IMG/VR virus record: IMGVR_UViG_3300030106_007857
Coordinates: 1 to 25,876 of that record
Length of the DNA stretch: 25,876 bases
Origin: a virus
Direction: 5' to 3' (one strand)
Positions 6,052-23,947 of the stretch are shown piece by piece; position 1 is the first letter of the stretch; each line of letters starts with the position of its first letter. The position numbers and the translations under genes are program-made. The notes below the pieces were generated by a model. It searched no databases. It was given only the letters and a program-made list of their open reading frames with translations, and was not told the origin of the DNA.

Positions 6052-8496
6052 CTATAAGAAAGATAAAGCCTTGTCAACAACTTTTACAGAAATTTTCTCA
6101 ATTTTCTTGTTTTTCACTAAAAACTTAGACAGTGGCACTTGTATCGCACTTTTTACCAGGTTTTTAATCTGTCTGGCGTGACTATTTTTTTCTTTTACTT
6201 GATTAAAAATGTGTTTTTTGATTGAAGCGTGATACTCTAGCTCTAGACCTCTCTCTGCTAAACGATCTTTGATGATTTTCAACTCTTGGTTGATGATTTT
6301 TTGTAAGTGATTGTCGTTCAAATTGTTAAAGAATATCACCTCATCTATCCTAGCTAATAATTCAGGGCGTAAATGACTCTTCAAAGCTTTTTTGTAAACG
6401 CTAGAGCCGCTTTCTTTATCTGGCACAAAACCCATGCTTCTTTTAGAGTTTTCATTGTGTCCAATATTAGATGTCATGACTATAACTGTGTTACTAAAAT
6501 CAACATCTCTGTTTAAATTATCAGTAGTATTGCCTTCATCTAATATATGTAAAAGTAAATCTAGAATTTTAGGATCACACTTTTCTACCTCGTCAAACAA
6601 AACAACACAATTAGGGTTGTTTCTAACAAATTCTGTCAATAATCCACCTTCTTCAAATCCAACGTATCCTGCGTTAGCACCTATCAGCTTAGAAATACCA
6701 GTCTTATCTTGGTATTCACTCATATTTAGCTGTATATAGGATTTTTCATTGCCAAAATAGTATTTAGCTATTTTCTTAGCAGTAAATGTCTTACCAACGC
6801 TAGTCCCTCCTATAAATAAGAAGTTAGATAAAGGTTTTTGTGGATCATTTAAACCAGCTTTAGCACATGCAAGGGCGTTATTTATAACCGAAATCGTTTG
6901 TTCTTGGCCAAAGATTTCACTATTCATTTGCTTCTCAAAATTATTAAATGAAGAGCTGTTTTTAGCTATACTTTTAGGGGCTAAACCAGTTTTTTCGCTA
7001 AAAATTGTAACAATGTCACTTTGCCTGATTTTATGCTTGCGCCCTTTTGGTTTAGAGCTACCAGCTAGTTCTTTTAAATAATCTTTTATGACGTTAGTGA
7101 ACTCTTCTTCGTCCATTTTTTCGTCATCATTATTTTTAACTAGGTAGTTACATAGTTTTTCTTTAGCACTTGTCATTTCCTTAGACTCCGTAAAATATTT
7201 TATTTTGGTTCTAGCGCCTATTTGGTCTATCAAGTCAAATGCTTTATCTGGAAATCTTTGATTACTCAAAAGCTTCTCTGATAAATCTAAAATTGCGTCT
7301 ATATTATCTTCTGTATACTTTACGTGATGAAACTTCTCATAAAAAGGTAATGCTTGCATCACTATGTCTTTAGTTGCTTTTTTAGACGGCTCTTCTACTA
7401 CAATTTTATCGAAACGTCTTTTCATAGCAGTGTCTTTCTCAAAGAATTTTTTATATTCCTGAGATGTTGTAGCTCCTATGCACTTTATATCTCCCCTAGC
7501 GAGGGCAGGTTTAAGCATATTTGATGCGTCTACAGCTCCTTCTGAATTACCTGCTCCTATAATTGTGTGTATTTCATCAAAAAACAACACAATGTGGTCA
7601 TCTTTAGCCGCTTCAGCTATCAAAGCCTTAAATCTTTCCTCAAATTCTCCTCTATACTTCGTGCCAGCTATCATTGCGCTAATGTCAACGGTATAAATCG
7701 TCATCATGCCGAGATGTGGTGGCACTTGTTGGGTAACAATTTTTTGAGCCAATCCTTCTACAATCGCAGTTTTTCCCACGCCAGCCTCTCCAACCAGTAT
7801 AGCATTACTTTTATTCTTTTTAGATAAAATCTCTATAAGATTTTTTGTTTCATTATTTCTACCTGTAATTTTAGCAGGTTGATCGGTCAAAAATTTTTCA
7901 TTTAAGTTTATGCAGTATTGTTGCAAATTGCTAACCGCTGGCTTAGTTGGTGTTTCATCCACAAATTTTACGAATTTAGGGCCTTTTTTGCCCTCTATTT
8001 GTAGTATATTCTTAACTTGATCTGTGGGAGGTATACTTGTCTCTAAAACATGTGTCTCTATTACATCTTTTACGTGTGCTGGCTCAATTTCTTTACTACG
8101 TAAATATTCTACAAGCTCTCCACCCATATCTAATACAGTATAAAGTATATGTTCTACGTTGATAAAGAAACTATCAAACATATCAGAGAACTCTTTAGCA
8201 AAGACAATAATGTCATTGACATCTTGATGCCAGCCCCCCTGCCCTTTTGTTGATTCAAACTTCTTGGGATGTTTAGATGCGTATTCTCTAAATATTTTAG
8301 CATACCTTTCGGTATCTAGAGGCACCCCATACCCTTTAAATTTTATTTTTAAACTATCAGATAAGTTAGCTAGACAACCATATATTAAGTGAGAACAGTC
8401 CACAACAGAGTGACCATTAGCTTCTGCAAAATTTTTGGCATCCTTTAAACCTTGTTTAGCTTTTGGGGTTAGATTGAAATCGGTTAGACCCATCAT
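6052..8496 (-). CDS. ClpA/ClpC-like double AAA+ protein unfoldase
   Basis: 814 aa; two adjacent ATGs (8496 and 8493) are possible starts. Residues 1-150 form a Clp-type double-repeat N-domain. D1 is about 190-430, with Walker A GEAGVGKT (236-243), Walker B FFDEIH (D307, E308), the pore-loop segment GTKYRGEFEERF and arginine-finger region MKRRF (358-362). A short linker of about 90 residues follows, not the large coiled-coil M-domain of ClpB. D2 is about 515-814, with Walker A GGTSVGKT (563-570), Walker B VVLFDEVEK (D635, E636), pore loop GYVGFEEGG (610-618) and sensor-2 SHARQIK. MGF (688-690) sits where ClpA and ClpC carry the ClpP-docking tripeptide. Such enzymes unfold proteins and feed them to ClpP; no clpP is in the window, so a host ClpP or a protease-free role is likely. 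Confidence 0.92.
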   Translation of the reverse strand: MMGLTDFNLTPKAKQGLKDAKNFAEANGHSVVDCSHLIYGCLANLSDSLKIKFKGYGVPLDTERYAKIFREYASKHPKKFESTKGQGGWHQDVNDIIVFAKEFSDMFDSFFINVEHILYTVLDMGGELVEYLRSKEIEPAHVKDVIETHVLETSIPPTDQVKNILQIEGKKGPKFVKFVDETPTKPAVSNLQQYCINLNEKFLTDQPAKITGRNNETKNLIEILSKKNKSNAILVGEAGVGKTAIVEGLAQKIVTQQVPPHLGMMTIYTVDISAMIAGTKYRGEFEERFKALIAEAAKDDHIVLFFDEIHTIIGAGNSEGAVDASNMLKPALARGDIKCIGATTSQEYKKFFEKDTAMKRRFDKIVVEEPSKKATKDIVMQALPFYEKFHHVKYTEDNIDAILDLSEKLLSNQRFPDKAFDLIDQIGARTKIKYFTESKEMTSAKEKLCNYLVKNNDDEKMDEEEFTNVIKDYLKELAGSSKPKGRKHKIRQSDIVTIFSEKTGLAPKSIAKNSSSFNNFEKQMNSEIFGQEQTISVINNALACAKAGLNDPQKPLSNFLFIGGTSVGKTFTAKKIAKYYFGNEKSYIQLNMSEYQDKTGISKLIGANAGYVGFEEGGLLTEFVRNNPNCVVLFDEVEKCDPKILDLLLHILDEGNTTDNLNRDVDFSNTVIVMTSNIGHNENSKRSMGFVPDKESGSSVYKKALKSHLRPELLARIDEVIFFNNLNDNHLQKIINQELKIIKDRLAERGLELEYHASIKKHIFNQVKEKNSHARQIKNLVKSAIQVPLSKFLVKNKKIEKISVKVVDKALSFL

Positions 8497-8507
8497 AATT
8501 CTTTACA

Positions 8508-11054
8508 CTATTTAACTTCAGATAACTTCATGTAGATTTTATCCTTTAACGGAAATATTTTATCAATGAACACGACATCATCACCTTTCGATCCATATAT
8601 AATTATAATATCGTTTTTAACTGGTAGTTTTTTACCACTATCTAAGTAATCAGTCAACCTAGATTCTTGATTGCTATCTAAGAAAAGACCGTTTACTGAA
8701 CCAACTTCATCTTGTATTGATAACCTAGCATATTTATTACCATTTCTGCTAGTTCTCCTCATTATATCAGTTAGCACACCTACAAATTTTACATTAGACC
8801 TTTCTGGCAAATCTATAATTACCTCTGATGAGTGAAACTCATCTTCGTAGCTAAACACCTGTCTAATGTTATGTGAATAACTATAACCAAGCAACTTCTC
8901 CTCAAAAAACCAATTCGCATATTTGAGATGTTGTCGATTCATGTCAAATATCTCTTTGTATGGTGCAAATTTCTTGCGAAAAGTTTCAAACCTGCGATCA
9001 GCAAACATTTTGCGGTTATCATCACCAACCATGTCTTTTTTACGAGTATCATGTATGGCAGTGATTATATCGTAATTGTAGTCTTCTCCTAGAGATATTA
9101 AATTTCTTTTTTCTCTGTCTGTGAGAATATTAAATGTTTGAGCCTCTAAAACCAACCTGCATCTGTTGCTAGAAACAAATGAATCAAGTAAGCCAGCTTG
9201 TATTAGTGCGGACAAAGTTCCTATATTTAAACCCGCTTGTTTCGCAGAGATAAATACTTCATATTTGTTCTCGAAACTTTCCTCTCTGAACTCTAGAAGG
9301 GACTCTAAAACTTTGGTAGATACACCCTTGATTGAGTTCAAACCATATCTGATGTTCTTACCCTCTATCTTGAAATCAATGTCAGACTTGTTTAGGTCTG
9401 GTGGTAAAAGCTTTATATCGAAGTTGCCAAGCTCCTGCGTGATTTTAGCTATCTCTTCATGAGAGTTTGGTTCATACTTAGTGTATTTTAAAAGACTTAA
9501 AAAGAATTCTTGAGGATAATTAAATTTTAAGTAAACAGTGCAAGCAGCAAGGTAGGCATAACTAATTGAGTGAGACTTGTTAAAAGAATAGTTGGCAGAA
9601 TCCTCTGCGACCCTCCAAAGAACATCACCGATAGCTGGATCTAATTCATTTTCTTGTATTTTTTGTTCGATCTTAGCTTTCCAAGCTGGCATCTGATCAA
9701 CCTTTTTCTTACCTACTATACGGCGCAACTGCTCTGACTCATCTAGACTAAAACCAACTTTGACAGCCATTTTCATAAGCTGTTCTTGGTAAAGAGGAAT
9801 ACCCCCCGTATAGCTAAGGATGTCATCAAAAAACTCATGCACAGACTGGAACTCTCCAGTTCTAACATAATCAGCATAACTATCTTTGAAGTCTAAAGCC
9901 CCAGGTCTTGCTATAGCTACAACTGCTGATAACTGCTCTAAGTTTTGAGGCGCAATCTGTTGACAGACTTTGAAATTAGTCTCTGCCTCTATCTGGAACA
10001 GTCCTTGAGGAGATCTTAAGCAAGCGAGAGCGGCGTATATGGAATCGTCATTGGGGTCTATGTCTTCTGCTTTAATGTCAAGCTGCTTACAAACGTCATG
10101 AACCACTGATAATGTCCGCAAACCTAGAATATCAAACTTAACACTAAGGCTTGCGACATCATTCATGTCATAACCAGAAACAAGCGCCCCATCGTTTGTT
10201 GTTTGCAGTGGCATGATGTTTTCTAAATCATAGTAAGAAATACAAATGCCAGATGGATGAACTCCAGTGTTTTTATTTAACCCTTGTAATTTTTTTGCTA
10301 TCTTAAAAGCTTTACAATGTTTATCTGCATAAGATCGAAAACTTTCACTCTCTTCATAAGCGTCATCTAACTTAGCAACAATACCAAAGTGTTTTGGAAT
10401 AGTATCGCTGATTTGATTGACTTCTTGTTCATTAAGCTCCTCGACTATCTTGCCACACTCTTTCATGCAGAGCTTACTACTTAATGTGTTTAAGGTTAAA
10501 ATTTTAGATGTCCTGCCCTCAAATTTTTTCTCTATGTATTTAATGACTTCTAACCGACGATCATAAGAAATGTCGTTATCAACATCAGCTAGTAAGCTAC
10601 CATCAAGATAAACCTCACCTTCATGCTCTATCTTTCTAGCTCTGCTCTTGGAAACAAACCTTTCAAAGAAAAGATCATATTTAATTGGGTCAATATTAGT
10701 AACACCAATAACGTAGAGCACTAAAGATCCTGCTGCGCTACCCCGACCCGCACCCGTGGGAATATCATTTTCTTTACAATAATTGAGAATGTCCCAATTC
10801 AAAAGTATGTAATCCACAAAACCTAACTCATCAAAGATTGTCAGCTCTTCTTTTAATCTTTCATAATAAACTGTAGCGTTATCTAGTTTGTCTATGCCTT
10901 TTTGTTTGACCTTGCTAAAGCATAGCTTTCTAAGGAATTGAAATGTATTTCCCAGGTCATCACAAGATACCTGATCGTAATATTTTTTTTCTATTTCAAT
11001 TTTAGGGAGTTTTACTCCAACTGGAAAAGGGGTATTATAACCTGTGAAACTCAT
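8508..11054 (-). CDS. DnaE-type DNA polymerase III alpha, catalytic core without PHP domain
   Basis: 848 aa, ATG one base after the upstream stop. It is a C-family replicative polymerase core. Palm motif GAGRGSAAGSLVLY (101-114) is followed by YDLFFERFV. The metal-binding run ADVDND gives D157, D159 and D161, matching the PDxDxDF motif but preceded by an extra segment (about 140-154, containing VYLDGSLL). The third catalytic aspartate is D308 in KFDILGLRTL. Further motifs are GLFQIEAE (351-358), ARPGALD, PLYQEQLMKMA and YSFNKSHSISYAY (489-501), then a helix-hairpin-helix-like region (LIQAGLLDSF) and a C-terminal OB fold beginning VKFVGVLTDI. Cellular DnaE is about 1,160 aa; here the first 250 or so residues, including PHP, are encoded separately at 12287-13039. 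It presumably acts with that piece and the DnaQ exonuclease. Confidence 0.93.
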   Translation of the reverse strand: MSFTGYNTPFPVGVKLPKIEIEKKYYDQVSCDDLGNTFQFLRKLCFSKVKQKGIDKLDNATVYYERLKEELTIFDELGFVDYILLNWDILNYCKENDIPTGAGRGSAAGSLVLYVIGVTNIDPIKYDLFFERFVSKSRARKIEHEGEVYLDGSLLADVDNDISYDRRLEVIKYIEKKFEGRTSKILTLNTLSSKLCMKECGKIVEELNEQEVNQISDTIPKHFGIVAKLDDAYEESESFRSYADKHCKAFKIAKKLQGLNKNTGVHPSGICISYYDLENIMPLQTTNDGALVSGYDMNDVASLSVKFDILGLRTLSVVHDVCKQLDIKAEDIDPNDDSIYAALACLRSPQGLFQIEAETNFKVCQQIAPQNLEQLSAVVAIARPGALDFKDSYADYVRTGEFQSVHEFFDDILSYTGGIPLYQEQLMKMAVKVGFSLDESEQLRRIVGKKKVDQMPAWKAKIEQKIQENELDPAIGDVLWRVAEDSANYSFNKSHSISYAYLAACTVYLKFNYPQEFFLSLLKYTKYEPNSHEEIAKITQELGNFDIKLLPPDLNKSDIDFKIEGKNIRYGLNSIKGVSTKVLESLLEFREESFENKYEVFISAKQAGLNIGTLSALIQAGLLDSFVSSNRCRLVLEAQTFNILTDREKRNLISLGEDYNYDIITAIHDTRKKDMVGDDNRKMFADRRFETFRKKFAPYKEIFDMNRQHLKYANWFFEEKLLGYSYSHNIRQVFSYEDEFHSSEVIIDLPERSNVKFVGVLTDIMRRTSRNGNKYARLSIQDEVGSVNGLFLDSNQESRLTDYLDSGKKLPVKNDIIIIYGSKGDDVVFIDKIFPLKDKIYMKLSEVK

Positions 11055-11055
11055 T

Positions 11056-11670
11056 TTAAATCATCTTTATGGCGACTAAATCTTCAGGACATTTTTGATC
11101 AACAATAATTGAGTAATTAAACTCTGAAAGACGTTGAACCGTTTTCTTTAGAGTCGGACCATTTGTTTTAAAAGTTCCTTCAGAGTGACTGTGTTCAAAA
11201 CGGATATATCCAATCTTATATTTATCTAAGTTGATATCATTGATAATCTGACAGTCTAAACCCTCTACGTCCACATAAAGCCTATCTATAGGTTCACCAT
11301 CGAAATAGTCCAAAAGTGTGCTGATCCGAAGGGCTGAAACCCTTTCCTTCTTAACTTCCATAGGAGGTTTATTTGATATCTCCCCTTCTATCTTCTTATG
11401 AGTTTTTACATGCTGTTCTAGAAGAGAACAATGCACGTTATTAGGAACATCCACAGGATAGAATAAATCGACTTCCTTTTCATCTGTATCCACTACCGCG
11501 ACATGCTGGAATTTAATATTATTAAAGTCCTTATAGAATTCTTTGGCCAAATCAAGGGCGCTAGACGATGCATCGACCAATAAAGCTTTGGGCGATTCTT
11601 GTTTATAAAATTTAAGCAATTCGCTAACCTTATCGTTTGCTTCATTGCAGCCAATTTGTAGTATGTTCAT
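11056..11670 (-). CDS. FkbM-family SAM-dependent methyltransferase
   Basis: 204 aa. A Rossmann methyltransferase start (MNILQIGCNEAND) leads to an acidic-loop strand (KALLVDASSSALDLAKEF). The FkbM signature is in the second half: VSALRISTLLDYF, then RLYVDVEGLDCQIINDI, matching the family pattern L-x2-L-x(n)-DVEG-x-(E/D). FkbM enzymes usually O-methylate sugars or small metabolites. The position is odd: it lies between the DnaQ gene (3 nt away) and the polymerase core (1 nt away), and so separates the two parts of the polymerase. It may belong functionally with the sugar cassette upstream. The substrate cannot be read from sequence. Confidence 0.8.
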   Translation of the reverse strand: MNILQIGCNEANDKVSELLKFYKQESPKALLVDASSSALDLAKEFYKDFNNIKFQHVAVVDTDEKEVDLFYPVDVPNNVHCSLLEQHVKTHKKIEGEISNKPPMEVKKERVSALRISTLLDYFDGEPIDRLYVDVEGLDCQIINDINLDKYKIGYIRFEHSHSEGTFKTNGPTLKKTVQRLSEFNYSIIVDQKCPEDLVAIKMI

Positions 11671-11673
11671 AGT

Positions 11674-12306
11674 TTATATGTCTAATTCAAAAAGTTGTTT
11701 GCGAAATATCTTAAAATTCATCTCTATGTCATATAAGGCATCATGCAATCTCTTAGCATCATGAGGAATGTTATATTTTTTTAGCAAAAAGCCTTGAGAT
11801 GTTTTCAATCCTCTCTCTTTATAGTTCACTAATCTATATTGCCAGCTAATAAAGTCTTCATTATCTACAGGTATTTGTTTAGCTATAGCAGTGGCTAAAG
11901 CTCTAGTATCTATTATCCTTGATACGTAATCGTAATCAACCTTCTGGCGCATAAGATGTCTCCAAACATTAAGCATATAGACATCAAAACCTAAAACATT
12001 TTGTCCTACTAAAAGAGTATTTGGGTCATAAAAGTCTTTAGCAAAGAGATCCCAAACTTCTTCTGGTGGCTTACATTTTTTTCTATAGCTGGCTTGACTG
12101 AACCCTGTAACTCTAGCTGCATCTGGAGAGACATTTAGATCAGGCCAATCTATATAAAGATCATGCTTAGATATAATCCTATCACCCTCCGCTACAAGCC
12201 AAGCTATCTGCCAAGGCTTTGAGCTAACTAAATTAAGACCTTCGGTCTCAGTATCAAAGACTAGATACTTTTGTTTTTTATTAAACCTAAGAAGCGTCTC
12301 GTTCAT
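11674..12306 (-). CDS. DnaQ-like DEDDh 3'-5' exonuclease (proofreading subunit)
   Basis: 210 aa. All three exonuclease motifs are present: Exo I FDTETEGL (D18, E20), Exo II VGQNVLGFDVYML (D108) and Exo III RLHDALYDIEMNF (H188, D193), giving the DEDDh set of the epsilon proofreading subunit. It has only the nuclease domain. C-family polymerases generally lack their own exonuclease, and this gene overlaps the PHP-piece gene by 20 bp, so proofreading for the polymerase encoded on either side is the natural role. The alternative is a general single-strand exonuclease for end processing. Confidence 0.88.
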   Translation of the reverse strand: MNETLLRFNKKQKYLVFDTETEGLNLVSSKPWQIAWLVAEGDRIISKHDLYIDWPDLNVSPDAARVTGFSQASYRKKCKPPEEVWDLFAKDFYDPNTLLVGQNVLGFDVYMLNVWRHLMRQKVDYDYVSRIIDTRALATAIAKQIPVDNEDFISWQYRLVNYKERGLKTSQGFLLKKYNIPHDAKRLHDALYDIEMNFKIFRKQLFELDI

Positions 12307-13039
12307 TTTTACTCTCTAGATATGATTCAAAACAAAACTCTTTACTACCAAAATGCTCTAACCTTGGACTACTTAATGTAGCAGCTTTCCCAAAGTTTCT
12401 GTTACAAAGAATTTTATATGTTTGCAATGCTTCTGCATCGTCTTTGTTTTTGTAAAAAATACTTTTGACTAGCCTAACTGGTCTTTGCAAACTTTTAGAA
12501 AATTTTATAACTTTTCTCTCTAGTAAAGTATCAAAAGGTAAATTATTTCTCTCTACCCAAAATGTCGGGGATATATCGCTAAAGTCGGGGATACACTTTT
12601 TAAGATAAAGATTGTTGTTGAAAATAAAAGAATCATAAAAGGGTATAACAAGCTCAACATCGTTAGTCCAAATATTATTCAAGAATGCAAAATCTACCTT
12701 ACCTTTTCCTGTGTGAGCGTAAGAATAAATTTTGTAAAGTAAGCGACAACCCTCATCATTTTTTGCAAATATAACTATTTTGTGATCTGAGTTGTCATCC
12801 TCATTTATATCGTTGCAGCAGGTGATTCTAAGGCCAAAAACAAGAGCAATATCCTCTTCTTGGCAGCGATTATGAGCCGTGACAAAACCCGTCATAGAAT
12901 CCTCTACTAAGACAAGCGATCCGATTGAGTTCTCTTTACAAATCTCAATGATGCTATCAGCTCCACCCTCTTTTGATTCCTTGTCTAAGGTCAAAATGCT
13001 TTTACCTATGGAAAAGGTTGACTTAAATACTGGAGTCAT
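12287..13039 (-). CDS. Separate, degenerate PHP/N-terminal piece of the DnaE polymerase
   Basis: 250 aa. The layout follows the first 250 or so residues of DnaE. An opening strand and loop, FKSTFSIGKSILTLD (5-19), replaces the usual HxHS-YSLLDG. Next comes DSIIEICKENSIGSLVLVEDSMTGFVTAH (about 28-56) where DnaE has the A-x(n)-G-x-ALA-TDH-x2-G segment, then ALVFGLRI (65-72). The last third (PVRLVKSIFYKNKDDAEALQTYKILC) matches the ATNDVHY-x4-D-x2-A-x-D-x-L-x-C region that ends PHP. The metal-binding histidines of the opening motif are absent, so phosphatase or exonuclease activity is unlikely; a structural role next to the core is inferred. No intein-like extension follows residue 240. A GAGG touches the ATG. 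Confidence 0.7.
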   Translation of the reverse strand: MTPVFKSTFSIGKSILTLDKESKEGGADSIIEICKENSIGSLVLVEDSMTGFVTAHNRCQEEDIALVFGLRITCCNDINEDDNSDHKIVIFAKNDEGCRLLYKIYSYAHTGKGKVDFAFLNNIWTNDVELVIPFYDSFIFNNNLYLKKCIPDFSDISPTFWVERNNLPFDTLLERKVIKFSKSLQRPVRLVKSIFYKNKDDAEALQTYKILCNRNFGKAATLSSPRLEHFGSKEFCFESYLESKNERDAS

Positions 13040-13046
13040 CCTCTAC

Positions 13047-13074
13047 ATTTTACAATCAGTAAACATCAAGTCAA
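13047..13074 (-). promoter_or_regulatory. Candidate sigma-70-type promoter before the polymerase PHP-piece gene
   Basis: On the minus strand TTGACT (13074-13069) and TAAAAT (13052-13047) are 16 bp apart, each one base from the bacterial -35 and -10 consensus. The start point would fall near 13041-13039, almost on the ATG at 13039, giving a leaderless or nearly leaderless message. It spans most of one of the few gaps in the window (31 bp). In AT-rich DNA such a match can arise by chance, so this is only a candidate. Confidence 0.3.
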
Positions 13075-14096
13075 GAACAATGTGCAGGACAACCCTTGTA
13101 GTATCGCATTTCGTATTTGCAACCCTCTGGCACTAAATCTTCTGAAAAGTCCTCTTCAAAATAAGATTTAATAATATTACCCTCTTGATCTAAGATCTCA
13201 TAATAAAAAAAATCAAACTTCATCGAACAATGCCACTTTGGATTACCATCTTTTTTAAGTTCTCCTTTTTGAGTAGCAAAACCACATAATAGTTTGCCGC
13301 TGAAGGAATTATCCGTTGGAAACCCTTGATGAGCTGCGTAGTTTTTTATAGCGTCTTTCTCTGTAAAGTTATCGAGATATCTCTGTATCTCAGAGAGCTG
13401 TATTTCAAAACCAGCAAGTTCATCATCATCTAAAGGCTCCATACGCATGACACCCGATTTTTCAGCGTTAGGATCTAGATCAAATTTTAAAAATAAGAAC
13501 TCACTAACCCTTTTTGAATATTCTGGAAATAAATTTTTTACAGCTAAACTATACATTAAGTCCTGTAAGTTATCTGTCCGATCTTTACCCTTAAAAACTT
13601 CTTTACTAGTTTTAAAGTCTCTTATTATAGCAAACCTTTTCTTTTTATACAAGAAGAGCTTATCTATGAACCCTCTGATCTTGTATTTTATTTCGCCATC
13701 ACTTTTGATAATATCAAAATCTTTTTCAGAGTATTCTTCTGTAGGTTTCCCTATATCTCCTCCAAAAAAATCGTAGGATAGACCGTTGAAGATCATGTCC
13801 TTCATCATGTCTACATTTTCTTCATCATCTACACCTTCTCTAACAGCATGAGACATTATCAGCCTTTTTATGGAGGGTATACAAAAAACATCTTCTGTTT
13901 TAAGTATTTTATTAAAATATTTTTTGCGTCCTTTAACGCCTAATACCTCAAACACTAAATGACAAATGGAGCCACGCTTGGCTCCCTCATTACTTTTGTC
14001 TGGTAATTTTAGTTTGTATTTGCACCAGTATAACCACGAACACGATTGAGCCGTCTTTATCCTGCTTGCAGATAAAGGTGTATTCGGTTCAGGCAT
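13071..14096 (-). CDS. RecB/Cas4-type PD-(D/E)XK nuclease
   Basis: 341 aa from the ATG at 14096, which gives an 8-bp overlap with the primase stop; the longer frame needs a TTG at 14159. The RecB-family nuclease order is complete: H46 (GSICHLVFE), D145 (RGFIDKLF), D160-F-K162 (IIRDFKTSK) and Q178/Y182 (NLQDLMYSL). Cysteines C19 and C25 near the start, with C326, C336 and C340 at the end (YYKGCPAHC), recall the Cas4/AddB arrangement in which an early cysteine and a C-terminal trio bind an iron-sulphur cluster; here the spacing is unusual and the cluster is only a suggestion. The likely role is a 5'/3' exonuclease in phage recombination, next to the primase, helicase and RecA-like genes. Confidence 0.85.
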   Translation of the reverse strand: MPEPNTPLSASRIKTAQSCSWLYWCKYKLKLPDKSNEGAKRGSICHLVFEVLGVKGRKKYFNKILKTEDVFCIPSIKRLIMSHAVREGVDDEENVDMMKDMIFNGLSYDFFGGDIGKPTEEYSEKDFDIIKSDGEIKYKIRGFIDKLFLYKKKRFAIIRDFKTSKEVFKGKDRTDNLQDLMYSLAVKNLFPEYSKRVSEFLFLKFDLDPNAEKSGVMRMEPLDDDELAGFEIQLSEIQRYLDNFTEKDAIKNYAAHQGFPTDNSFSGKLLCGFATQKGELKKDGNPKWHCSMKFDFFYYEILDQEGNIIKSYFEEDFSEDLVPEGCKYEMRYYKGCPAHCS

Positions 14097-15153
14097 CACT
14101 AATAAATAGGGCTGTTTTAATATCTTTTTTAGTGAAGCTAGAGGGGTTATTTTTAACAAACTCTAAGATATATTTTATCTGGGCATTCTTGTCTATATTT
14201 TTATCAAGCCAAGAATTTAGATCATAGTCATCTAAATGAGCGTCACCAAAGTCATTATAACCTTTAGGTGGAAATTTTACAGTTAGCATATCTAAATCAA
14301 AATACTTAGACAACTTCAAAAAACTTTTTAATGCTGCTATGAATCCCCGATTCTGTTCACTAGCTTTGTCATTATTAGTCGAAATATAAATATGACGTAT
14401 ACACTTACTATTAAGATAGTTAACAATGTTATTGTTGACAGATAAACCAAAGATAACCAACACATTCTTAATACCTTGATCATAAAGCGCCATTGCATCT
14501 CCAATGCTTTCTACTAAGACAACTTCTTGTTTTTTTGTTATTTCTTGATCTACACATGTTTTCTCGTTGAAAGCTGGATAGACCCAATTGTTTCTTTTTC
14601 CTATATGTTTCCATTTTGGATAGTCGTTATCATCATCTACTTTCCTGCCAGAGAAGCCAACAATTTGTTGATGCTCATTGTATACAGGAAAAACCATCCT
14701 TCTATACATTTTACCAACACCCGCAAGACCAGCTTGGAATAATTCTTGGGTATTATCAGAAATATTTCTTTTTTTATAAAAGTTATAGTTAGGGAAAAGC
14801 CTATCAAGTGTAGAATCTGGGTATATCTTTTCCATCTCTATCTTTTGTTTAGGTTCATAGGTGGTTTCTGTAACCACAGACCCATCACCAATAATTTTAG
14901 CAACTTCTCTATCGTCTTTTAGGGTAAGACGTATCAATGCTTCAAAAGGCATACAGCCTTTGTTTTGCACAAAATCCATCCAAACTCCTGTATTCTTATA
15001 TATCTTTACAGCAGTTTTGTTGTTTCCGTCACGATAAATAGCCTGAGTTCTCCAGTGATCTCCGCAGTCAATTAGAGAATATCCAATAGACTCCAGTATC
15101 CCTTGAAAATCTTCAGAATTGATCAAAGTCTGGGATTGTTTCTTGGAATCCAT
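14089..15153 (-). CDS. DnaG-like TOPRIM primase, zinc finger degenerate
   Basis: 354 aa from the ATG at 15153 (a GTG lies just before it); it overlaps the helicase gene by 41 bp. The N-terminal 80 residues keep the shape of a CHC2 primase zinc domain (HWRTQAIYRDG, KTAVKIYKNTG, WMDFVQNKGCMPFEAL) but only two cysteines remain (C30 and C67). The core motif RRMVFPVYNEHQQIVGFSGR (151-170) is followed by the TOPRIM domain: VVLVESIGDAMALY with E215, and YISTNNDKAS, where the DxD pair reads N-N-D (D262), then KGYNDFGDA. The role is primer synthesis with the DnaB-type helicase encoded just upstream. Loss of zinc ligands and of the first acidic residue suggests an altered template or metal dependence. 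Confidence 0.85.
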   Translation of the reverse strand: MDSKKQSQTLINSEDFQGILESIGYSLIDCGDHWRTQAIYRDGNNKTAVKIYKNTGVWMDFVQNKGCMPFEALIRLTLKDDREVAKIIGDGSVVTETTYEPKQKIEMEKIYPDSTLDRLFPNYNFYKKRNISDNTQELFQAGLAGVGKMYRRMVFPVYNEHQQIVGFSGRKVDDDNDYPKWKHIGKRNNWVYPAFNEKTCVDQEITKKQEVVLVESIGDAMALYDQGIKNVLVIFGLSVNNNIVNYLNSKCIRHIYISTNNDKASEQNRGFIAALKSFLKLSKYFDLDMLTVKFPPKGYNDFGDAHLDDYDLNSWLDKNIDKNAQIKYILEFVKNNPSSFTKKDIKTALFISDA

Positions 15154-16630
15154 CACTATCTAATTCTTCATCTCCATCCTGAACTCTAGCTATGTCTCTC
15201 AGATCGCCACGCTCAGTAATATTAAAATTCATAAACTCTAGATTTATAGAGTTCTTTCTTAAAGAGTCTCCTATCCTAACTGGCTCTATAGCTCCCGCTA
15301 TATCGCTGCCTAAGTGCCTAGCTTTAACATTGATTAGTTTATGTGTGCCAAATCTGCCACCCTCAGTCTCGATCTCATCAGCAGTCTTATTGCGTAGGAT
15401 GAACATGTGAGAACAGAACTGAGTAATCCTATCTGATAAGGAAACAATAGATTCATCATCAACTATATTTTGTGAGTTTCTATTATTGGTAATACCGTAT
15501 CTATTAGACTGAACAGATGTAATCATCGGTATGATTGGGTTTCCATCATGCAAGATTTCTTTTTGGACGCATTTTTTAAACTTGTCTACCATCTCACCCA
15601 CCACTTGCCACTCAGACTTGTTAGCTATATTTTCAGATGTTGTCTTAATATAATCAAAAGAAAATACCATAGGATTACCTCGACCCACCTTTGAGTAATA
15701 AAACCTTTTCAGTGTGTTTACCATCGTGTCTACATCCATACCACCCACATTGTAATAAAAGAACTTAAGGTTTTTAATCTTTGGCCAAACAGATCTAACC
15801 TTACTCACAACCTCTTCACCCGCTTGTCGCCACTTACCGCTTTCTAAAAGATGCATAGCTACCCCAGACAAAGCCGCACACTGACGCATGACAAGCTCCT
15901 CTTTACTCATCTCTCCATTATCAAAGTGAAGAACAGGCACATCATATTGCAAGCTCACTTTAGTAGAATAATCCATGCAGAATTGGGTTTTACCCACGCC
16001 AGATCTTGCCACTACAACTGTTATGTTTCCAGGTCTTAGAAGGGAGCCGTATATCTCATTAACTTTTGGATGAGGCCCCATCATCCCAAATTCAGTCAGT
16101 GGGTTATTACCTCTATCTTCGATGATAGCCTCCATCTCCTCATAGATGTTTTCTGGGACATCGTTGCCAAGCTCATAAAGATTTATACGAGAATTATAAA
16201 CATTGTCTGCACTCTCCACGATAGCCCTGTAAGAAGCCTCTGGGGGCATCGCTTTCATCTTTTTAGCGATTTCTTGTGAAGACTGCAATATCTCGCGCCT
16301 GATAGAATATTTTTTTAATTCTTTAGCTGTCTTAAGAGCGTTTCCTTTAGGCACTTTTCTCAAAGCTAATGACTTGATGTAATCAGCAGGGTTGAGATTA
16401 TCTTCAAATGACAAACCTACTTCATTCACTCTCTGAGCGATGATAACTTCGTCAATCTCATCACCAGAGTCGATAGCTTGCTTTATGATCCTGAATATTG
16501 TCGAGTGAAGTGCGCTTTGCTCAGAATAAAAATCTGAGTTTCCTATAAAGTTGGATATCTCAGACAATGCGTCAGGCTCTTTGATAAGACCCGCTAATAA
16601 TTGTTTTTCTAATTCAAAATTATAGATCAT
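15113..16630 (-). CDS. DnaB-type replicative helicase
   Basis: 505 aa, overlapping the previous gene by 11 bp. The N-terminal domain (about 1-115) starts ELEKQLLAGLIKEPDAL, which matches the DnaB N-domain pattern E-x-(A/S)-x-LG-x-ll. The RecA-like C-terminal domain has Walker A ARSGVGKT (208-215), a catalytic glutamate in DNGEMSKEEL (E240), Walker B-like MVFSFDYIK, then SVQSNR in the place of the usual SQLNR, and a hexamer arginine-finger region near KARHLG. The tail is acidic (DGDEELDSDGF). It unwinds the fork ahead of the C-family polymerase and recruits the adjacent primase. No separate helicase loader was recognised, though one of the small neighbouring genes could serve. Confidence 0.92.
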   Translation of the reverse strand: MIYNFELEKQLLAGLIKEPDALSEISNFIGNSDFYSEQSALHSTIFRIIKQAIDSGDEIDEVIIAQRVNEVGLSFEDNLNPADYIKSLALRKVPKGNALKTAKELKKYSIRREILQSSQEIAKKMKAMPPEASYRAIVESADNVYNSRINLYELGNDVPENIYEEMEAIIEDRGNNPLTEFGMMGPHPKVNEIYGSLLRPGNITVVVARSGVGKTQFCMDYSTKVSLQYDVPVLHFDNGEMSKEELVMRQCAALSGVAMHLLESGKWRQAGEEVVSKVRSVWPKIKNLKFFYYNVGGMDVDTMVNTLKRFYYSKVGRGNPMVFSFDYIKTTSENIANKSEWQVVGEMVDKFKKCVQKEILHDGNPIIPMITSVQSNRYGITNNRNSQNIVDDESIVSLSDRITQFCSHMFILRNKTADEIETEGGRFGTHKLINVKARHLGSDIAGAIEPVRIGDSLRKNSINLEFMNFNITERGDLRDIARVQDGDEELDSDGFQETIPDFDQF

Positions 16631-18366: not shown

Positions 18367-18706
18367 CTAAAAAATCTTTTATAGTTTTACTTTTGCGCGG
18401 TAAGTTCACATCTTGTCCTACCTTCTCTCCAATATCGTAGGTTTTGTATTTAGACAAGTCAACCTTAAAATTGAAAGCTCTAAATTTTTCATCGAGGGTT
18501 CCTCTTAGCTTGTCACTGACAAGATAGGCTAATGAATCAAATTTTTTATCAAACGAAACTACAGCAAGAAAGTCTTGCGAGTAACGATAACAAAGATCGT
18601 TAAGCATCTTCATTTCTCTAGCGAAAAAAGGTCGCCTACCTTTGTCTGGCACTTCTACCAGACGGAATATGATGTCCCTCTTGTTAGGGCCTTTATATTT
18701 TGCCAC
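18359..18706 (-). CDS. Small conserved-looking protein upstream of RecA, unknown
   Basis: 115 aa, GTG start at 18706 overlapping the dehydratase stop by one base (TAGTG). The product starts MAKYKGPNKRDIIFRLVEV and contains FFAREMKMLNDLCYRYSQDF, which looks helical, followed by strand-like LAVVSF and SLAYLV. A basic/polar tail, RKSKTIKDFLDE, ends the protein and looks like a short exposed peptide. It overlaps the recombinase gene by 8 bp, so it is made together with it. A mediator or loader for the recombinase (the role of UvsY in T4) is possible, but there is no sequence match I can point to. Confidence 0.5.
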   Translation of the reverse strand: MAKYKGPNKRDIIFRLVEVPDKGRRPFFAREMKMLNDLCYRYSQDFLAVVSFDKKFDSLAYLVSDKLRGTLDEKFRAFNFKVDLSKYKTYDIGEKVGQDVNLPRKSKTIKDFLDE

Positions 18707-19755
18707 TATGGATACACGCTATCAGAAGCGACATCGTAGTCAACCATTTTTTTGACTAATTGGATAAAGTTCGTCTTCGGGTGCCACCCGAGTTCTTCAC
18801 GGGCTTTTGTAGAATCACCCAACAGTAAATCAACTTCAGCTGGACGATAAAAATCTTTATTAATTTCCACAAAGCAATCTTTGCCGTGAAAATACTTCTC
18901 TTCTAAACCTTCACCTCTCCATTCAGAAACACTTCTATGAAAACCAACAAAATTAAAAGCTTCAACTACAAACTCTCTAATAGTATGAGTTTCATCAGAA
19001 GATAATACGTAGTCTTTGGGGTTATCTCTATCTTGATTTAGCATCAACCAAACACCTCTAACAAAATCTTCTGCATCGCTCCAATCTCTTTTGGCATCAA
19101 CATTACCGAGTTGTAGAGGCTTAATAGTTTTGCCTTGCTCAAATTCTTTTAATATTCTAGCGACATTTTTTGTTATTTTTCTAGTAACAAACTCTTCTCC
19201 TCTTCTAACACCCTCATGATTAAAAAGCCAACCTTGAACTGCATACAAATCATAAGAATCCCTGTAAACCTTGACAAGATGTCTAGCGGCACACTTAGCT
19301 GCTCCATACGGGCTTCTGGGGCGCAGTGGGTGCGTTTCATCCTGCGGCGTAGATACAACATCACCAAACTCCTCAGATGAGCCAGCGTTGTAGTATCGGC
19401 AATGTGGAGCATGTTTTCTAATACTCTCTAATTGATGCAACACCGCCATAGCGTTAGTCTGCATATGATTAACGGGCATCTCCCAGCTACTACCCACAAA
19501 AGAATTAGCGGCAAAGTTTATAAAGTAATCAGGCTTCTCTTTGGCTATGACTCTATCTGTGTTCTCTGGGTCTGCTATGTCCAAATCAATAAGATAAAAT
19601 CTGTCATTGCGCTCTAGATGCTCAATGTTTTTGTGATTTTTAACACTGAGTCTTCTGACACCTCCAATAACTGTGTGCTCCGTGTTTTTAAGTAAATAGT
19701 CTGCCATGTGACTACCATCTTGTCCTGTAACTCCTGTAATAATTATTTTCTTCAT
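18706..19755 (-). CDS. gmd: GDP-mannose 4,6-dehydratase
   Basis: 349 aa from the ATG at 19755, which makes an ATGA overlap with the gene before it; the longer frame uses a TTG. NADP-binding TGVTGQDGS (7-15), the conserved RR at 34-35, NFAANSFVGSSW, the catalytic segment AGSSEEFG (E128, E129), Y150-x3-K154 in SPYGAAK, and WLFNHEGVRRGEEFVTRKI (176-194) are all typical of Gmd. The end carries RDWSDAEDFV and RPAEVDLLLGD. It converts GDP-mannose (or a related GDP-sugar) to the 4-keto-6-deoxy form, the precursor of fucose, rhamnose, perosamine and 6-deoxy-heptose. It closes the sugar cassette and is directly followed by recombination genes. Confidence 0.93.
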   Translation of the reverse strand: MKKIIITGVTGQDGSHMADYLLKNTEHTVIGGVRRLSVKNHKNIEHLERNDRFYLIDLDIADPENTDRVIAKEKPDYFINFAANSFVGSSWEMPVNHMQTNAMAVLHQLESIRKHAPHCRYYNAGSSEEFGDVVSTPQDETHPLRPRSPYGAAKCAARHLVKVYRDSYDLYAVQGWLFNHEGVRRGEEFVTRKITKNVARILKEFEQGKTIKPLQLGNVDAKRDWSDAEDFVRGVWLMLNQDRDNPKDYVLSSDETHTIREFVVEAFNFVGFHRSVSEWRGEGLEEKYFHGKDCFVEINKDFYRPAEVDLLLGDSTKAREELGWHPKTNFIQLVKKMVDYDVASDSVYP

Positions 19756-20168
19756 AAGACCCAATCAGTGCATACCCCGAAACAATTGTAGTTTTTGTCT
19801 CGCCAGTTCTTGTTATTATCAACGATAACAGATTTTTGACAAGTTTTTTTATCAGGGAAAGTCCAAATAAAATGCTTAGAGGTTAGTGTAAAATCATCGG
19901 TTTGATGCCAAAAAAAGTTCATCCACCTTGGAATTTTTTCTAAACCCTCTAAATTCTTTACATGTATCCACAATCTAGGTCTAGAAAGAAAATTCATGTC
20001 TATCTCATATTTAGGCTCATCATGCCCTAAATACCAAACGTCATCTTTTATCCACAAATCTACTTCACAATCATAACCCAAATCTAAAGTTTTGTTAACT
20101 TGAGTAGGATTGTTTTCTTTGTCTGGATCTGGACCAGAAAGATTACCTCTATGTGATACTAAAATCAT
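19752..20168 (-). CDS. Short glycerophosphodiester-phosphodiesterase-like protein
   Basis: 138 aa, ATG one base after the preceding stop. It opens with SHRGNLSGPDPDKENNP (H6, R7), then GYDCEVDLWI (E35, D37) and WYLGHDEPKYEID (H49), which together make the HRG, ExD and GHD catalytic set of the GDPD/PI-PLC-like barrel. WIHVKNLEGLEKIP and FFWHQTDDFTLTS follow and would be later barrel strands. Full GDPD enzymes are about 250 aa, so this is a half-length form, although its catalytic residues are complete. In a sugar cassette it may act on a phosphodiester in a glycan or on a lipid-linked intermediate. The family is likely; the substrate is unknown. Confidence 0.75.
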   Translation of the reverse strand: MILVSHRGNLSGPDPDKENNPTQVNKTLDLGYDCEVDLWIKDDVWYLGHDEPKYEIDMNFLSRPRLWIHVKNLEGLEKIPRWMNFFWHQTDDFTLTSKHFIWTFPDKKTCQKSVIVDNNKNWRDKNYNCFGVCTDWVL

Positions 20169-20169
20169 T

Positions 20170-21321
20170 TCAAATCATCATGCTTATTCTGGTCATATGT
20201 CTACCTCCATCAAAAGAGGACTTTTGAAGCGTGTTTATGATGTCCATCAAAGATGCTATTGAGGTGTATTTAGATGGGATAGAGAAAAAATTTGCACAGT
20301 TATGTCTACGCGACATTTCTGCTGTGTATTCATCAAATATAAGCGCAGCTCTGACTCCTTCTTTATGATTAGCTAAAATATTAATTCCTTGTCCTGTCCT
20401 ACAAAAACCTAAAATAAAATCACAAGTTTTATTATTCAGAGACTCAACTGCTTGGTTTACATAAGCGTTGTAATCAACATCTCTTTCTACGTGACAACCA
20501 AAATCAACATACTCTATACCTAAAGATTTTAAAACATTTTTAGCGTCTTGTTTTCTTTGATATCCAGAGTGATCGCAGCATAATCCAACAGGTTTTTCAC
20601 CGAATCTATAAGCAACCTTATCAACAAAAAATTCTAATTCTTCTGGAGTGCCTAACACATGCATTTTCTCTACTTGCTTGATACTAACACTGCGACCGTC
20701 TCTGATTAACAGATTATACATGGGGCAGATATAGAATTCATCTTTAGTTCTAATGTCTTTAGCAACAAGCTCTTCAGCATACTCTACAAAATATTTACCC
20801 TTTTTGAAATAGTAAACTCCAACAGCCGCATCAGAACTTATAACTTGTTTTTCTGCTGTTTTAATAGCAAACCCATCTTCATTAGTTGCCACATAACTAT
20901 GAGCTGGGCTGTTAGCTTTAAATGTAAGCAGTAACCCGTCTAAATTATCATCTATTGTATCAGGGTCGAACCTATTCTGAAAGTAAACATCTGGTGTGTA
21001 TATTATCAGCGGGTTGTCATTGTCTATGTATTGTTTCGCTAACAAACATGTTGATACTGAGCCATCTGTATCATGATCAATTACCACTATTTTAGTGTCT
21101 TGACCAAACTTTTGCTTTAGAATTTGATCAATAGAAAAATTGTTAATGTGCTCTAATCTTACAGCGAAAATTAGATTACAATCTTTTGTGTCAACTGATT
21201 CCATAGCCCAATCAATGACTTGTTTAGTTTTAGCCATTATTAAAGGTTTAGGCATACTATAACCCTGATCAACAAACCTTTGGGCTTTACCAGCTATCGG
21301 CAAAAGTAAATTGTATTTCAT
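20170..21321 (-). CDS. Sugar nucleotidyltransferase fused to an RpiB-like sugar-phosphate isomerase
   Basis: 383 aa, two domains. Residues 1-238 are a sugar-1-phosphate nucleotidyltransferase: LLPIAGKAQRF, GYSMPKPLIM (20-29), GSVSTCLLAKQYI, and LIIYTPDVYF with D111 at the metal-binding site. It ends HVLGTPEELEFF, as is common in this family. Residues 242-383 are a complete RpiB/LacAB domain: GLCCDHSGYQRK (D250, H251), VDYNAYV, LGFCRTGQGINILANH with C307 as the catalytic cysteine, GVRAALIFDEYTAEMSRRHN (H340) and FDGGRHMTRI. The fusion suggests that one protein isomerises a sugar phosphate and activates its later 1-phosphate form. It is ATGA-coupled to the kinase gene. The actual sugar is unknown. 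Confidence 0.88.
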   Translation of the reverse strand: MKYNLLLPIAGKAQRFVDQGYSMPKPLIMAKTKQVIDWAMESVDTKDCNLIFAVRLEHINNFSIDQILKQKFGQDTKIVVIDHDTDGSVSTCLLAKQYIDNDNPLIIYTPDVYFQNRFDPDTIDDNLDGLLLTFKANSPAHSYVATNEDGFAIKTAEKQVISSDAAVGVYYFKKGKYFVEYAEELVAKDIRTKDEFYICPMYNLLIRDGRSVSIKQVEKMHVLGTPEELEFFVDKVAYRFGEKPVGLCCDHSGYQRKQDAKNVLKSLGIEYVDFGCHVERDVDYNAYVNQAVESLNNKTCDFILGFCRTGQGINILANHKEGVRAALIFDEYTAEMSRRHNCANFFSIPSKYTSIASLMDIINTLQKSSFDGGRHMTRISMMI

Positions 21322-22010
21322 TGTATCAGGTAACTACTTGTCATACGTGAAGCTGATTCGATGGCTTTATCTAACGTAGAATTATAGTATTCTGACAAAA
21401 ATATTCCAGCAAAAATATCCCCAGCTCCATTGACATGAATATCATCCATAGGCTCTGTAAAGCCTCTACTAACAGACTCGCCATTTATAATACACTCACA
21501 CCCATTTTTATCGTGAAGTATTAAAGGCGTGTTTGTTTTGATTGAATTATATAAAGGTTTTCTTTCTCTAGAATCAAAAATTAGAGATGCCTTATTGATT
21601 AGATTCATATATTCCCCTCTAGGATCTAGAGTGCAAAAGTCTAAGCTAAGTTTTACATTTAAATTATCTAAAACATCTACATATGATAAATCATCAACAT
21701 AAGCTACATGTAGCCAATCAAGTAACTCTTCTTTGATTGTCGGTTTTGTTTTTTTAGATAACGAATGAACAATTGAGCTTCTAGTAGAGGTTTTCGACTC
21801 GCTAATTATGAAAGCTTCGACTTGACTGTCAGAGTAGCAATAGGTTCTTAGTGATGGTATGTTTGCTTTTGAAATATTAAAAATACCACCAGAAGTTTTT
21901 GTAATGTATTTAGCTTTGTTTGTTTCACCAAGTTTTATTTTATCTAAATAAACTATAGTGTCTAGGTAAGTTCTACCAAACAAACCAAGCTTAAAATCTC
22001 TCTGCTGCAT
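21318..22010 (-). CDS. PfkB/ribokinase-type sugar kinase, short
   Basis: 230 aa from the ATG at 22010; the longer frame uses a TTG. The first strand is LGLFGRTYLDTIVYLD. The first PfkB-like GG is in KTSGGIFNIS (about 37-46), and the second signature, HVNGAGDIFAGIFLSEY (N194-GAG-D198), holds the catalytic aspartate and anion-hole glycines but has HVN in place of the usual DTT/DTN. Ribokinases are about 300 aa, so parts of the lid or substrate domain are reduced. It overlaps the phosphatase gene by 20 bp and is ATGA-coupled to the fused nucleotidyltransferase, so it likely phosphorylates the same sugar, as the kinase half of HldE does for heptose phosphate. Confidence 0.75.
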   Translation of the reverse strand: MQQRDFKLGLFGRTYLDTIVYLDKIKLGETNKAKYITKTSGGIFNISKANIPSLRTYCYSDSQVEAFIISESKTSTRSSIVHSLSKKTKPTIKEELLDWLHVAYVDDLSYVDVLDNLNVKLSLDFCTLDPRGEYMNLINKASLIFDSRERKPLYNSIKTNTPLILHDKNGCECIINGESVSRGFTEPMDDIHVNGAGDIFAGIFLSEYYNSTLDKAIESASRMTSSYLIQ

Positions 22011-22509
22011 CAAGATCAATTATAGATTCTAAATCTGACCTCTCAACTAAATTAGTAGAAATTAAATACTCATAAAGTTCTACAATCGCATTATCGCCAC
22101 CTTTACTAAGTAACACGTTAGAACAACAAGTTCTTACATCTTCACAAGCATCAGACGGACAGAAAGAATATTTTACTGCATTTAGTAAATCCATATCAAA
22201 TATGTCATCTCCTACAAAACAAATGTCATCTGCTGAACAATTGTAGAGCATACATAATTTCTCTAAAAAATCTTTTTTATTTCTACCTCTAGCAAAATGA
22301 AAATCTATATTCCTATTTTCAGCCACAGCTCTATTGACATTTTCGTCACCACTTAGGAAGCATACATTTACACCAGCAGCCTTAATTCTTTTGATGGCTG
22401 TAAAATCTTTGTCGCAAAAGTTTTTAAGTCTACCCAAGCCATTTTCGCCATAATACTTTTTACCGTTTGTTAAAACACCGTCAACATCTAATATTAATAG
22501 TTTTATCAT
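21991..22509 (-). CDS. KdsC-like HAD phosphatase
   Basis: 172 aa. Motif I LILDVDGVLTNG (D8, D10), motif II CFLSGDENVNR (S54), lysine of motif III in RGRNKKDFLEKL and motif IV DDICFVGDDIFDMDLL. The cap-less C0 layout and length match KDO-8-phosphate phosphatase and related phosphatases. The kdsA, kdsB and kdsD genes are not seen nearby, while kinase, isomerase and nucleotidyltransferase genes are, so removal of a phosphate from a doubly phosphorylated sugar (the GmhB role) is a reasonable alternative to KDO-8-P. An ATGA overlap and a strong ribosome binding site precede it. Confidence 0.82.
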   Translation of the reverse strand: MIKLLILDVDGVLTNGKKYYGENGLGRLKNFCDKDFTAIKRIKAAGVNVCFLSGDENVNRAVAENRNIDFHFARGRNKKDFLEKLCMLYNCSADDICFVGDDIFDMDLLNAVKYSFCPSDACEDVRTCCSNVLLSKGGDNAIVELYEYLISTNLVERSDLESIIDLDAAERF

Positions 22510-23228
22510 AAAAATTCTCCTCTAATGTTTTTATCTATGTTGTATTCTTTATGTAAAATAGACAGCTCTGATTCATATTCAGAGTAGTTCCATTTACCTT
22601 TAACTATAGCTGTTGCTACATAAGGGTATACTTTTGAATCCCAATGACAAAGACCTCTTTGTGGTTCGTTGTCATAGTAATATAAATTTTTATAATTTAG
22701 CAAGATAGACATGAGGTGGGCTTTGGGTTCAAACTCATGTATGTTTTCTACATCGCAGTTCTCATAAAGTTTCTGAAGAGACTCTCTCTTGCACAAACTA
22801 GGTTGAACAGAAAAATAACAATCACCATTTCTAGGTAACTCATATAACTTATCAGAAAATTGTGTCTCAGGTATACCTACATTCCCCCCCTTAATTAATT
22901 TTATGTAATCAATATTATAAAGAGGCATCATCTCTATTTTATCCTCTATAAAATCTAAATCAGGTTTATCGTATAGCGGCATATCTTCATGATGGAGTAT
23001 GACGTATTCTTCATTTATTGCATTAAGGCATGAAGCCATGCGCTTGTTATATGATAAAGATTCATCATAAGTAACAATCTCCCAGTTTTCTGGTAAATTA
23101 TTAGATTCATCTACAAACGCATATCTTTTAATTTCTTTAGGTAGATATTTTTCTATCTGACCACAAAACATCTCCCAAGCATCACTATAGCTGCTGTGAG
23201 AATACATAATAATACAATAATTTTTCAT
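22506..23228 (-). CDS. Putative GT-A-like glycosyltransferase
   Basis: 240 aa from the ATG at 23228, which makes the ATGA overlap used by most neighbours; an ATG two codons earlier (23234) is also possible. The product begins MKNYCIIMYSHSSYSDAWEM. LSYNKRMASCLNAINEEYVILHHEDMPLYD (about 78-107) has the pattern of a GT-A enzyme where a helix is followed by the strand and acidic metal motif; HED would be the DxD equivalent. The second half has GDCYFSVQPSLCKRESL and HEFEPKAHLM. The family is not one I can name with certainty. Its neighbours are a second putative transferase and sugar enzymes, so glycan assembly is the likely role. Confidence 0.5.
   Translation of the reverse strand: MKNYCIIMYSHSSYSDAWEMFCGQIEKYLPKEIKRYAFVDESNNLPENWEIVTYDESLSYNKRMASCLNAINEEYVILHHEDMPLYDKPDLDFIEDKIEMMPLYNIDYIKLIKGGNVGIPETQFSDKLYELPRNGDCYFSVQPSLCKRESLQKLYENCDVENIHEFEPKAHLMSILLNYKNLYYYDNEPQRGLCHWDSKVYPYVATAIVKGKWNYSEYESELSILHKEYNIDKNIRGEFL
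22517..22523 (-). promoter_or_regulatory. Strong Shine-Dalgarno site for the HAD phosphatase gene
   Basis: AGAGGAG lies 7 nt before the ATG at 22509. It is one of the few textbook ribosome binding sites in the window; most other starts rely on ATGA-type coupling with weak or no visible site. It sits inside the end of the upstream coding region and suggests that the phosphatase is translated independently and strongly. Confidence 0.7.
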
Positions 23229-23947
23229 TCCCATGTTGTAGGTAGTGCAACTCTTTTATCCCAAAGACCGTTTCTTATCAAGAACCATTTATAACACTTA
23301 ATGCCATTAACTAAACCTCCGTGTTTGGACCCAGCCCATTTTTCCATTTCACTCCCTACTCTCATTTCTTTTTTGATTAAATTAAAAAAATTAGCAAACG
23401 CCGTCATGTTCTGTTGGTTTGAATAAAACCACATATCGGCTGGTCCCTCTTCATCAAAAGTTTGTTGTGACCATTCTGCTAAATAAAATTTTTGCATATC
23501 TAAATTAGGATCAAAATTTATACATTGAACTGCATACGGGCTGTGAGAATTAGGTGCGCCAGAGGTCCGTCTATTTATCCTTCCAACGTCAAATCGTGTT
23601 TTGATAACACAATCATATTTTTCACCTGCTTCTTCAAGTAACTCAAAAGATTTTTGCACAGAATAATATTGAGAAAAAAGGCGAGATTGAGGAACATATC
23701 CTCCAACCTGTTGAACTGTTTCTATAGATGAAAAATCTATTTGGGGTTCAAAACAATAACCTTTAACAGATTCTCCATAAAGGTCTAACACAAATTGTTT
23801 TTTTTCAAAGTCCCAGCTATGCATGTAGACATCTGTATCACATTTAGAAAAAACATGTTTTTGTAGATGTTTGTAACCATCTACTCCTTTTGAATTGGGA
23901 TCAGTGAAGGAATCAAAGTATCCCGCGATGCATACCGCTGTTTTCAT
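23225..23947 (-). CDS. Putative glycosyltransferase of a family common in surface-glycan clusters
   Basis: 240 aa, ATGA-coupled to the epimerase gene. The start MKTAVCIAGYFDSF and CDTDVYMHSWDFE near 36-48 are typical of a family of hypothetical transferases in which a VCISG-like strand is followed by DVF-x-H-x-W. YSVQKSFELLEEAGEKYDCVIKTRFDVGRIN (about 95-125) gives the R-x-D motif that takes the place of DxD. Then come a WFYSNQQNMTAF segment and an ending that contains a GGLVNGIKCYKWFL helix. The sugar and acceptor are unknown. The GT-A family call is moderately sure. Confidence 0.55.
   Translation of the reverse strand: MKTAVCIAGYFDSFTDPNSKGVDGYKHLQKHVFSKCDTDVYMHSWDFEKKQFVLDLYGESVKGYCFEPQIDFSSIETVQQVGGYVPQSRLFSQYYSVQKSFELLEEAGEKYDCVIKTRFDVGRINRRTSGAPNSHSPYAVQCINFDPNLDMQKFYLAEWSQQTFDEEGPADMWFYSNQQNMTAFANFFNLIKKEMRVGSEMEKWAGSKHGGLVNGIKCYKWFLIRNGLWDKRVALPTTWE

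Follow-up and report, generated by a model that had tools for sequence, protein, structure and literature searches.

A phage DnaE-type polymerase encoded as two pieces cut at the PHP/palm border

A stretch of phage DNA of 25,876 nucleotides, the whole of IMG/VR virus record IMGVR_UViG_3300030106_007857 (here called the window), encodes a DnaE-type DNA polymerase as two separate proteins. One, of 250 residues, is the N-terminal PHP domain; the other, of 848 residues (the core), holds the polymerase proper. Between their genes (php and core) lies the gene for a DnaQ-type exonuclease (exo). Profile searches, structure models and a fused relative confirm that the two proteins together are one DnaE divided at the PHP/palm border. 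The PHP protein has lost its metal-site motifs and probably serves in trans as a structural, and likely exonuclease-docking, subunit of a non-covalent three-protein polymerase. Carriers of this arrangement form a broad lineage, a large group of uncultured water-borne phages.

Two genes for one DnaE, and their distribution

A preliminary description of the window, made from the DNA letters alone, proposed a single DnaE cut at the PHP/palm border, and the open reading frames (ORFs) of both pieces were confirmed where it had placed them (Table 1). In profile searches the core matches the DnaE model TIGR00594 (5e-138) over model positions 294-1018 and the phage family phrog_405 over positions 325-1051; it also matches the Pfam families DNA_pol3_alpha, finger and HHH_6 (PF07733, PF17657 and PF14579) above their cut-offs. 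The 250-residue protein fills in the other end of the same models, covering positions 62-289 of phrog_405 (1.3e-13) and 27-236 of TIGR00594 (9e-5), as expected if the proposal was right. Its match to the Pfam PHP family, 5.6e-4, falls under the curated cut-off, a weak score attributed to the degeneracy of the domain.

Structure models lead to the same assignment. The AlphaFold2 models, all of single chains, have predicted local distance difference test (pLDDT) scores of 88.8 for the PHP protein and 85.3 for the core. In Foldseek searches the best Protein Data Bank matches of the PHP model are the DnaE proteins of E. coli, Thermus and M. tuberculosis (E-values down to 2e-9, template modelling scores of 0.59-0.71); chimeras of E. 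coli PHP and epsilon, about 310 residues long, are among these best matches. The core model likewise matches solved DnaE structures. An OB fold is recognised after the HHH: the Pfam OB match is weak (0.08), yet the core model has C-terminal strands at residues 754-835, and several OB-fold proteins are among its Foldseek matches. The core has no C-terminal tau-binding domain, and its match stops at position 1018 of TIGR00594 and at 1043 of the 1146 positions of PRK05673.

A fused relative ties the two pieces together. A 208-kb phage contig, L260, contains one ORF of 1138 residues (9983-13399) in which the php profile matches residues 5-250 and the core profile residues 261-1110. This fused DnaE also carries a degenerate PHP domain, and its exonuclease is encoded 1.2 kb upstream. 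Together with the structure matches and an alignment in which the PHP protein is collinear with the PHP domains of bacterial DnaE proteins, the fusion settles that the 250-residue protein is the PHP domain of a DnaE.

Scanning IMG/VR with core and php, and also with divergent relatives, yielded 284 loci in which all three genes are complete. Several of these overlap on the same contig, so the 178 distinct php/exo pairs are the fairer count. In all 284, php, exo and core each occur exactly once, share a strand and follow one another as PHP, DnaQ exonuclease, core. With exo between the pieces every time, the DnaQ protein is a plausible third subunit, as the preliminary description suggested. In none of the 284 does the PHP domain share a chain with the polymerase; L260 is the sole fusion in the family. 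Wherever enough upstream sequence is available php is present, except in the fused L260 and in isolate phages that have other DnaE proteins. Neighbouring ORFs (php/exo and exo/core) frequently abut or overlap, and in the window the start of exo overlaps the end of php by 20 nucleotides; the conserved order and the overlaps fit coupled expression.

By the preliminary description, a complete PHP domain encoded elsewhere would have refuted the split. Ten relatives of 91-180 kb yielded no second PHP or DnaE, though these contigs are possibly incomplete and the window itself is only a 25.9-kb fragment; eight further long records, that of L260 included, each give a single php-profile match. A terminase match in nine of the ten long records tested identifies the carriers as tailed phages. 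A search for the Gp23 capsid protein gave no hit, but it carries no weight, since its controls gave none either.

In a maximum-likelihood tree the split cores form one clade (Shimodaira-Hasegawa-like approximate likelihood-ratio test, 98). L260 is the sister of this clade on a long, fully supported branch, apart from bacterial and other phage DnaE proteins. Since the split cores are monophyletic, one split event is enough, and the sequences support a single origin. Fusion, the usual condition of DnaE, is for that reason assumed to be ancestral, but L260 is only a single sequence, with no relatives found beyond its own contig. The PHP protein has no match in the isolate-phage collection (tblastn), and the core has no close relatives there, the best being about 30% identical; among the matches listed, bacterial genomes provide only ordinary DnaE proteins, with up to about 31% identity.

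Since the window comes from just one metagenomic contig, the split might be suspected to be an error of assembly or a frameshift, or to mark the decay of a polymerase gene that the phage can do without. The arrangement is common to 178 distinct sequences, which is not the work of chance or faulty assembly. Moreover, the palm residues D157, D159 and D308 are invariant in 169 of 169 cores, and D18, E20, D108, H188 and D193 of the exonuclease, a complete DEDDh set, in 179 of 179. An origin by artefact or decay is thus scarcely credible.

It is also very improbable that the two products end up in a single chain, through intein trans-splicing or at the RNA level; all that speaks for this is the precedent of cyanobacterial DnaE. 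The preliminary description saw no intein-like end on either piece, and indeed no Hint or intein model matches either one. The lengths (about 236-270 residues for php and 846-875 for core, 5th-95th percentiles) sum to one DnaE and leave no room at the junction. Finally, a complete exo gene, sometimes with others, stands between the pieces, and thus neither frameshifting nor read-through can join them.

The PHP protein and the proposed three-protein assembly

The PHP domain has been described as strictly conserved in replicative bacterial polymerases and as a major structural element of Pol III (PMC3666897, BMC 2013). It modulates the stability and activity of Pol III, its role in E. coli is structural, and loss of its metal residues has coevolved with a separate exonuclease (PMC3666897). 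In the phage PHP protein, the metal-site motifs HxH, TDHG and NDxHY are all replaced. By the definition of an active PHP metal motif, HHDHEH[C/H]DH, used in a Nucleic Acids Research 2026 survey (PMC12926913), the protein is, judged by its sequence, an inactive PHP. The preliminary description passed over this degeneracy, as it did the missing tau-binding domain and the short exonuclease discussed below.

The most likely arrangement is as follows. The replicative polymerase of the phage is a DnaE alpha subunit whose division at the PHP/palm border is permanent, and the 848-residue protein is the polymerase proper. The PHP protein, no longer a metal enzyme, would dock in trans where the fused domain would sit and stabilise the polymerase, and it would probably hold the separately encoded DEDDh exonuclease beside the DNA exit path. 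The outcome would be a non-covalent assembly of PHP protein, exonuclease and polymerase, in which the three associate physically, the polymerase needs the PHP protein and the exonuclease docks on it. Because the proofreading enzyme is encoded between the pieces, these probably associate without a chemical link. In E. coli, alpha residues 1-270 by themselves are well behaved and keep full exonuclease binding (PMC3642679); a free-standing PHP domain that binds an exonuclease is therefore physically plausible.

Some observations weigh against this assembly. The phage exonuclease stops about 17 residues past its last catalytic Asp and lacks the C-terminal tail with which the E. coli enzyme wraps PHP. 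Thus, it cannot wrap the PHP protein as epsilon does, and docking would need another surface. A distance-matrix (mirror-tree) analysis speaks weakly for the assembly and partly against it. The highest partial correlation, between core and exo (0.63), supports a link of these two. Those of php are highest with core (0.33), weak support for a core-php link, and with primase (0.31), which is about as high, whereas the partial correlation of php with exo is near 0, and so there is no specific signal of co-evolution between them. In addition, a search for a beta clamp or gp45 homologue (PF00712, PF02916) in 12 long relatives of 99-208 kb (L066, L036, L062, L048, L067, L008, L076, L165, L224, L260, L207 and L318) found nothing convincing; these phages may have a divergent clamp or rely on that of the host. 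By eye, no clamp-binding motif is obvious in the core.

The similar correlations of php with primase and core are also what might be seen if the PHP protein had left the polymerase for another role, as exonuclease partner, regulator or effector of host Pol III, with the core working alone. Likewise, the PHP protein has evolved more quickly than the core (56% versus 69% identity per column on average), and in some of the clade variable genes part php from exo or core. Nevertheless, every complete locus has one php per core, always upstream in the same block; the domain that would have been given up is the strictly conserved structural element described above; and that a domain devoid of enzyme motifs has been kept for so long speaks for a structural partner. 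A changed role is accordingly regarded as unlikely, and the structural subunit in trans as the probable state. An extension of the latter, in which PHP is an exchangeable subunit and a PHP-exonuclease sub-assembly loads on and off the core to switch proofreading and polymerase stability, is quite doubtful.

The gene block and its inserted genes

The features of the window that bear on the polymerase are collected in Table 1. The window has a G+C content of 35%, and on the minus strand the genes follow one another in transcription order as DnaB helicase, DnaG-type primase, PD-(D/E)XK nuclease, PHP protein, DnaQ-type exonuclease, FkbM methyltransferase, DnaE core and ClpA/B-like ATPase. A scan for σ70 promoters gave fewer matches than shuffled sequence did.

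Table 1. Features of the polymerase locus and adjoining replication genes in the window
Feature	Position	Strand	Evidence
PHP protein (proposed subunit), free-standing 250-residue N-terminal PHP domain of DnaE-type polymerase	12287..13039	-	phrog_405, TIGR00594, AlphaFold2/Foldseek, fused L260
DnaQ-type DEDDh 3'-5' exonuclease	11674..12306	-	Pfam RNase_T 1.3e-16, phrog_192 3.6e-21
Catalytic subunit (core), 848 residues: DnaE palm, fingers, HHH, OB	8508..11054	-	TIGR00594 5.2e-138, Pfam PF07733/PF17657/PF14579
FkbM-type methyltransferase, recent cargo gene	11056..11670	-	Pfam PF05050 1e-7
Extent of inserted cassette at exo/core junction	11047..11675	.	blastn break points and insert survey
PD-(D/E)XK nuclease, normally found next to php on its upstream side	13071..14159	-	Pfam PDDEXK_1 8.3e-14; synteny
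DnaG-type primase, same replication block	14089..15156	-	phrog_47 7.2e-21; synteny
DnaB-type helicase, same replication block	15113..16630	-	phrog_19 5.4e-41; synteny

Both a DnaQ exonuclease and an FkbM methyltransferase lie between the polymerase pieces in the window, as first described; the second is not a constant member of the locus. Three close relatives (L002, L005 and L007), 90-95% identical in DNA on the flanks, have no gene between exo and core, and blastn homology to them ends near 11676 and picks up again near 11046. This empty site rules out the methyltransferase as part of the polymerase system and, on sequence comparison, marks it as a recently inserted cargo gene. An insertion so recent indicates that php and core can bear a greater distance between them.

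The same junction carries a cupin-like gene in L009, L013, L019 and L022. More generally, the php/exo and exo/core junctions are insertion hot spots for unrelated cargo (for example L009 6181-6508, L079 10755-12616 and L225 9112-10002), which comprises FkbM, mannose-6-phosphate isomerase-like cupins, GMP reductase/IMPDH-like and SET-domain-like proteins and further unrelated ORFs, along with putative glycosyltransferases named by eye and not by profile. In the sister clade, 68 loci have a small acidic protein of up to 109 residues between exo and core (for example L213 9664-9993); it has only a weak match, to phrog_10202, and could be a polymerase accessory protein.

Downstream, the core adjoins the gene for a ClpA/ClpB-like double AAA+ ATPase (6052-8496; phrog_4871, 4e-207), which is syntenic within the clade of the window and is not recognised beside the core in the sister clade. 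At the other side of the window, 18706-25805 is a cluster of sugar-nucleotide and sugar genes that includes a GDP-mannose dehydratase-like protein, an epimerase and HAD phosphatases; within it, 20170-21321 encodes an RpiB-like C-terminal domain joined to a weak nucleotidyltransferase match.

Relation to known polymerases

In its domains the phage system resembles E. coli-type DnaE with DnaQ/epsilon, which likewise combines an inactive PHP with a separate DEDDh exonuclease. Unlike the E. coli type, the phage PHP is its own polypeptide, the exonuclease has no PHP-binding tail and the core has no tau-binding domain. PolC groups an exonuclease with PHP and polymerase, as does the phage locus, here in the order PHP, exonuclease, polymerase. 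Membership of the core in PolC is ruled out by its scores, 462 bits against TIGR00594 and 35 bits against the PolC model PRK00448. Cyanobacterial DnaE is also encoded by two genes, but these carry a split intein, whereas the phage pieces have no intein ends, and the cyanobacterial cut lies elsewhere in DnaE.

Phage polymerases broken at other places are known. Group 2.2 jumbo phages have a minimal Pol III alpha that is split within its catalytic module (PMC7824862, Viruses 2021). There, as here, a phage C-family polymerase module consists of two separately encoded proteins, which are presumed to reconstitute it; but the jumbo-phage enzyme is without the remaining Pol III domains and accompanies a family B polymerase. 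In the window, by contrast, the catalytic core is whole and the detached part kept in trans is PHP. Bacillus phage KLEB27-3, which has an HNH gene, and Rossellomorea phage phiT1 similarly have DnaE in two ORFs, but with the break inside the catalytic part, the first ORF of phiT1 being PHP plus palm. Otherwise the phage DnaE proteins sampled in GenBank are single long ORFs, of 956-1309 residues as annotated. In T4-related phages, gp43 and nrdA are split into two polypeptides that must reassemble, and split NrdA is functional (PMC2988022). Those cases concern a family B polymerase and a ribonucleotide reductase and are linked to homing endonucleases or intercistronic sequence, whereas in the window the two pieces have no homing endonuclease between them. 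The open-access literature searched yielded no report of a polymerase cut at the PHP/palm border. Thus, although a split phage Pol III alpha is already known, division at this border appears to be a new variant.

Replicative polymerases of bacteria are held always to include PHP, which in E. coli serves a structural and not an enzymatic purpose. In these phages it has been severed at a domain border and retained across a broad phage lineage while its metal site decayed. If the PHP protein were exchangeable, the phages would have a three-chain C-family replicase, with catalytic, PHP-scaffold and exonuclease chains, of a kind undescribed in bacteria. In any case, they offer a two-chain system, made by nature, that allows the roles of PHP in structure and in exonuclease docking to be tested directly by adding or omitting one protein.

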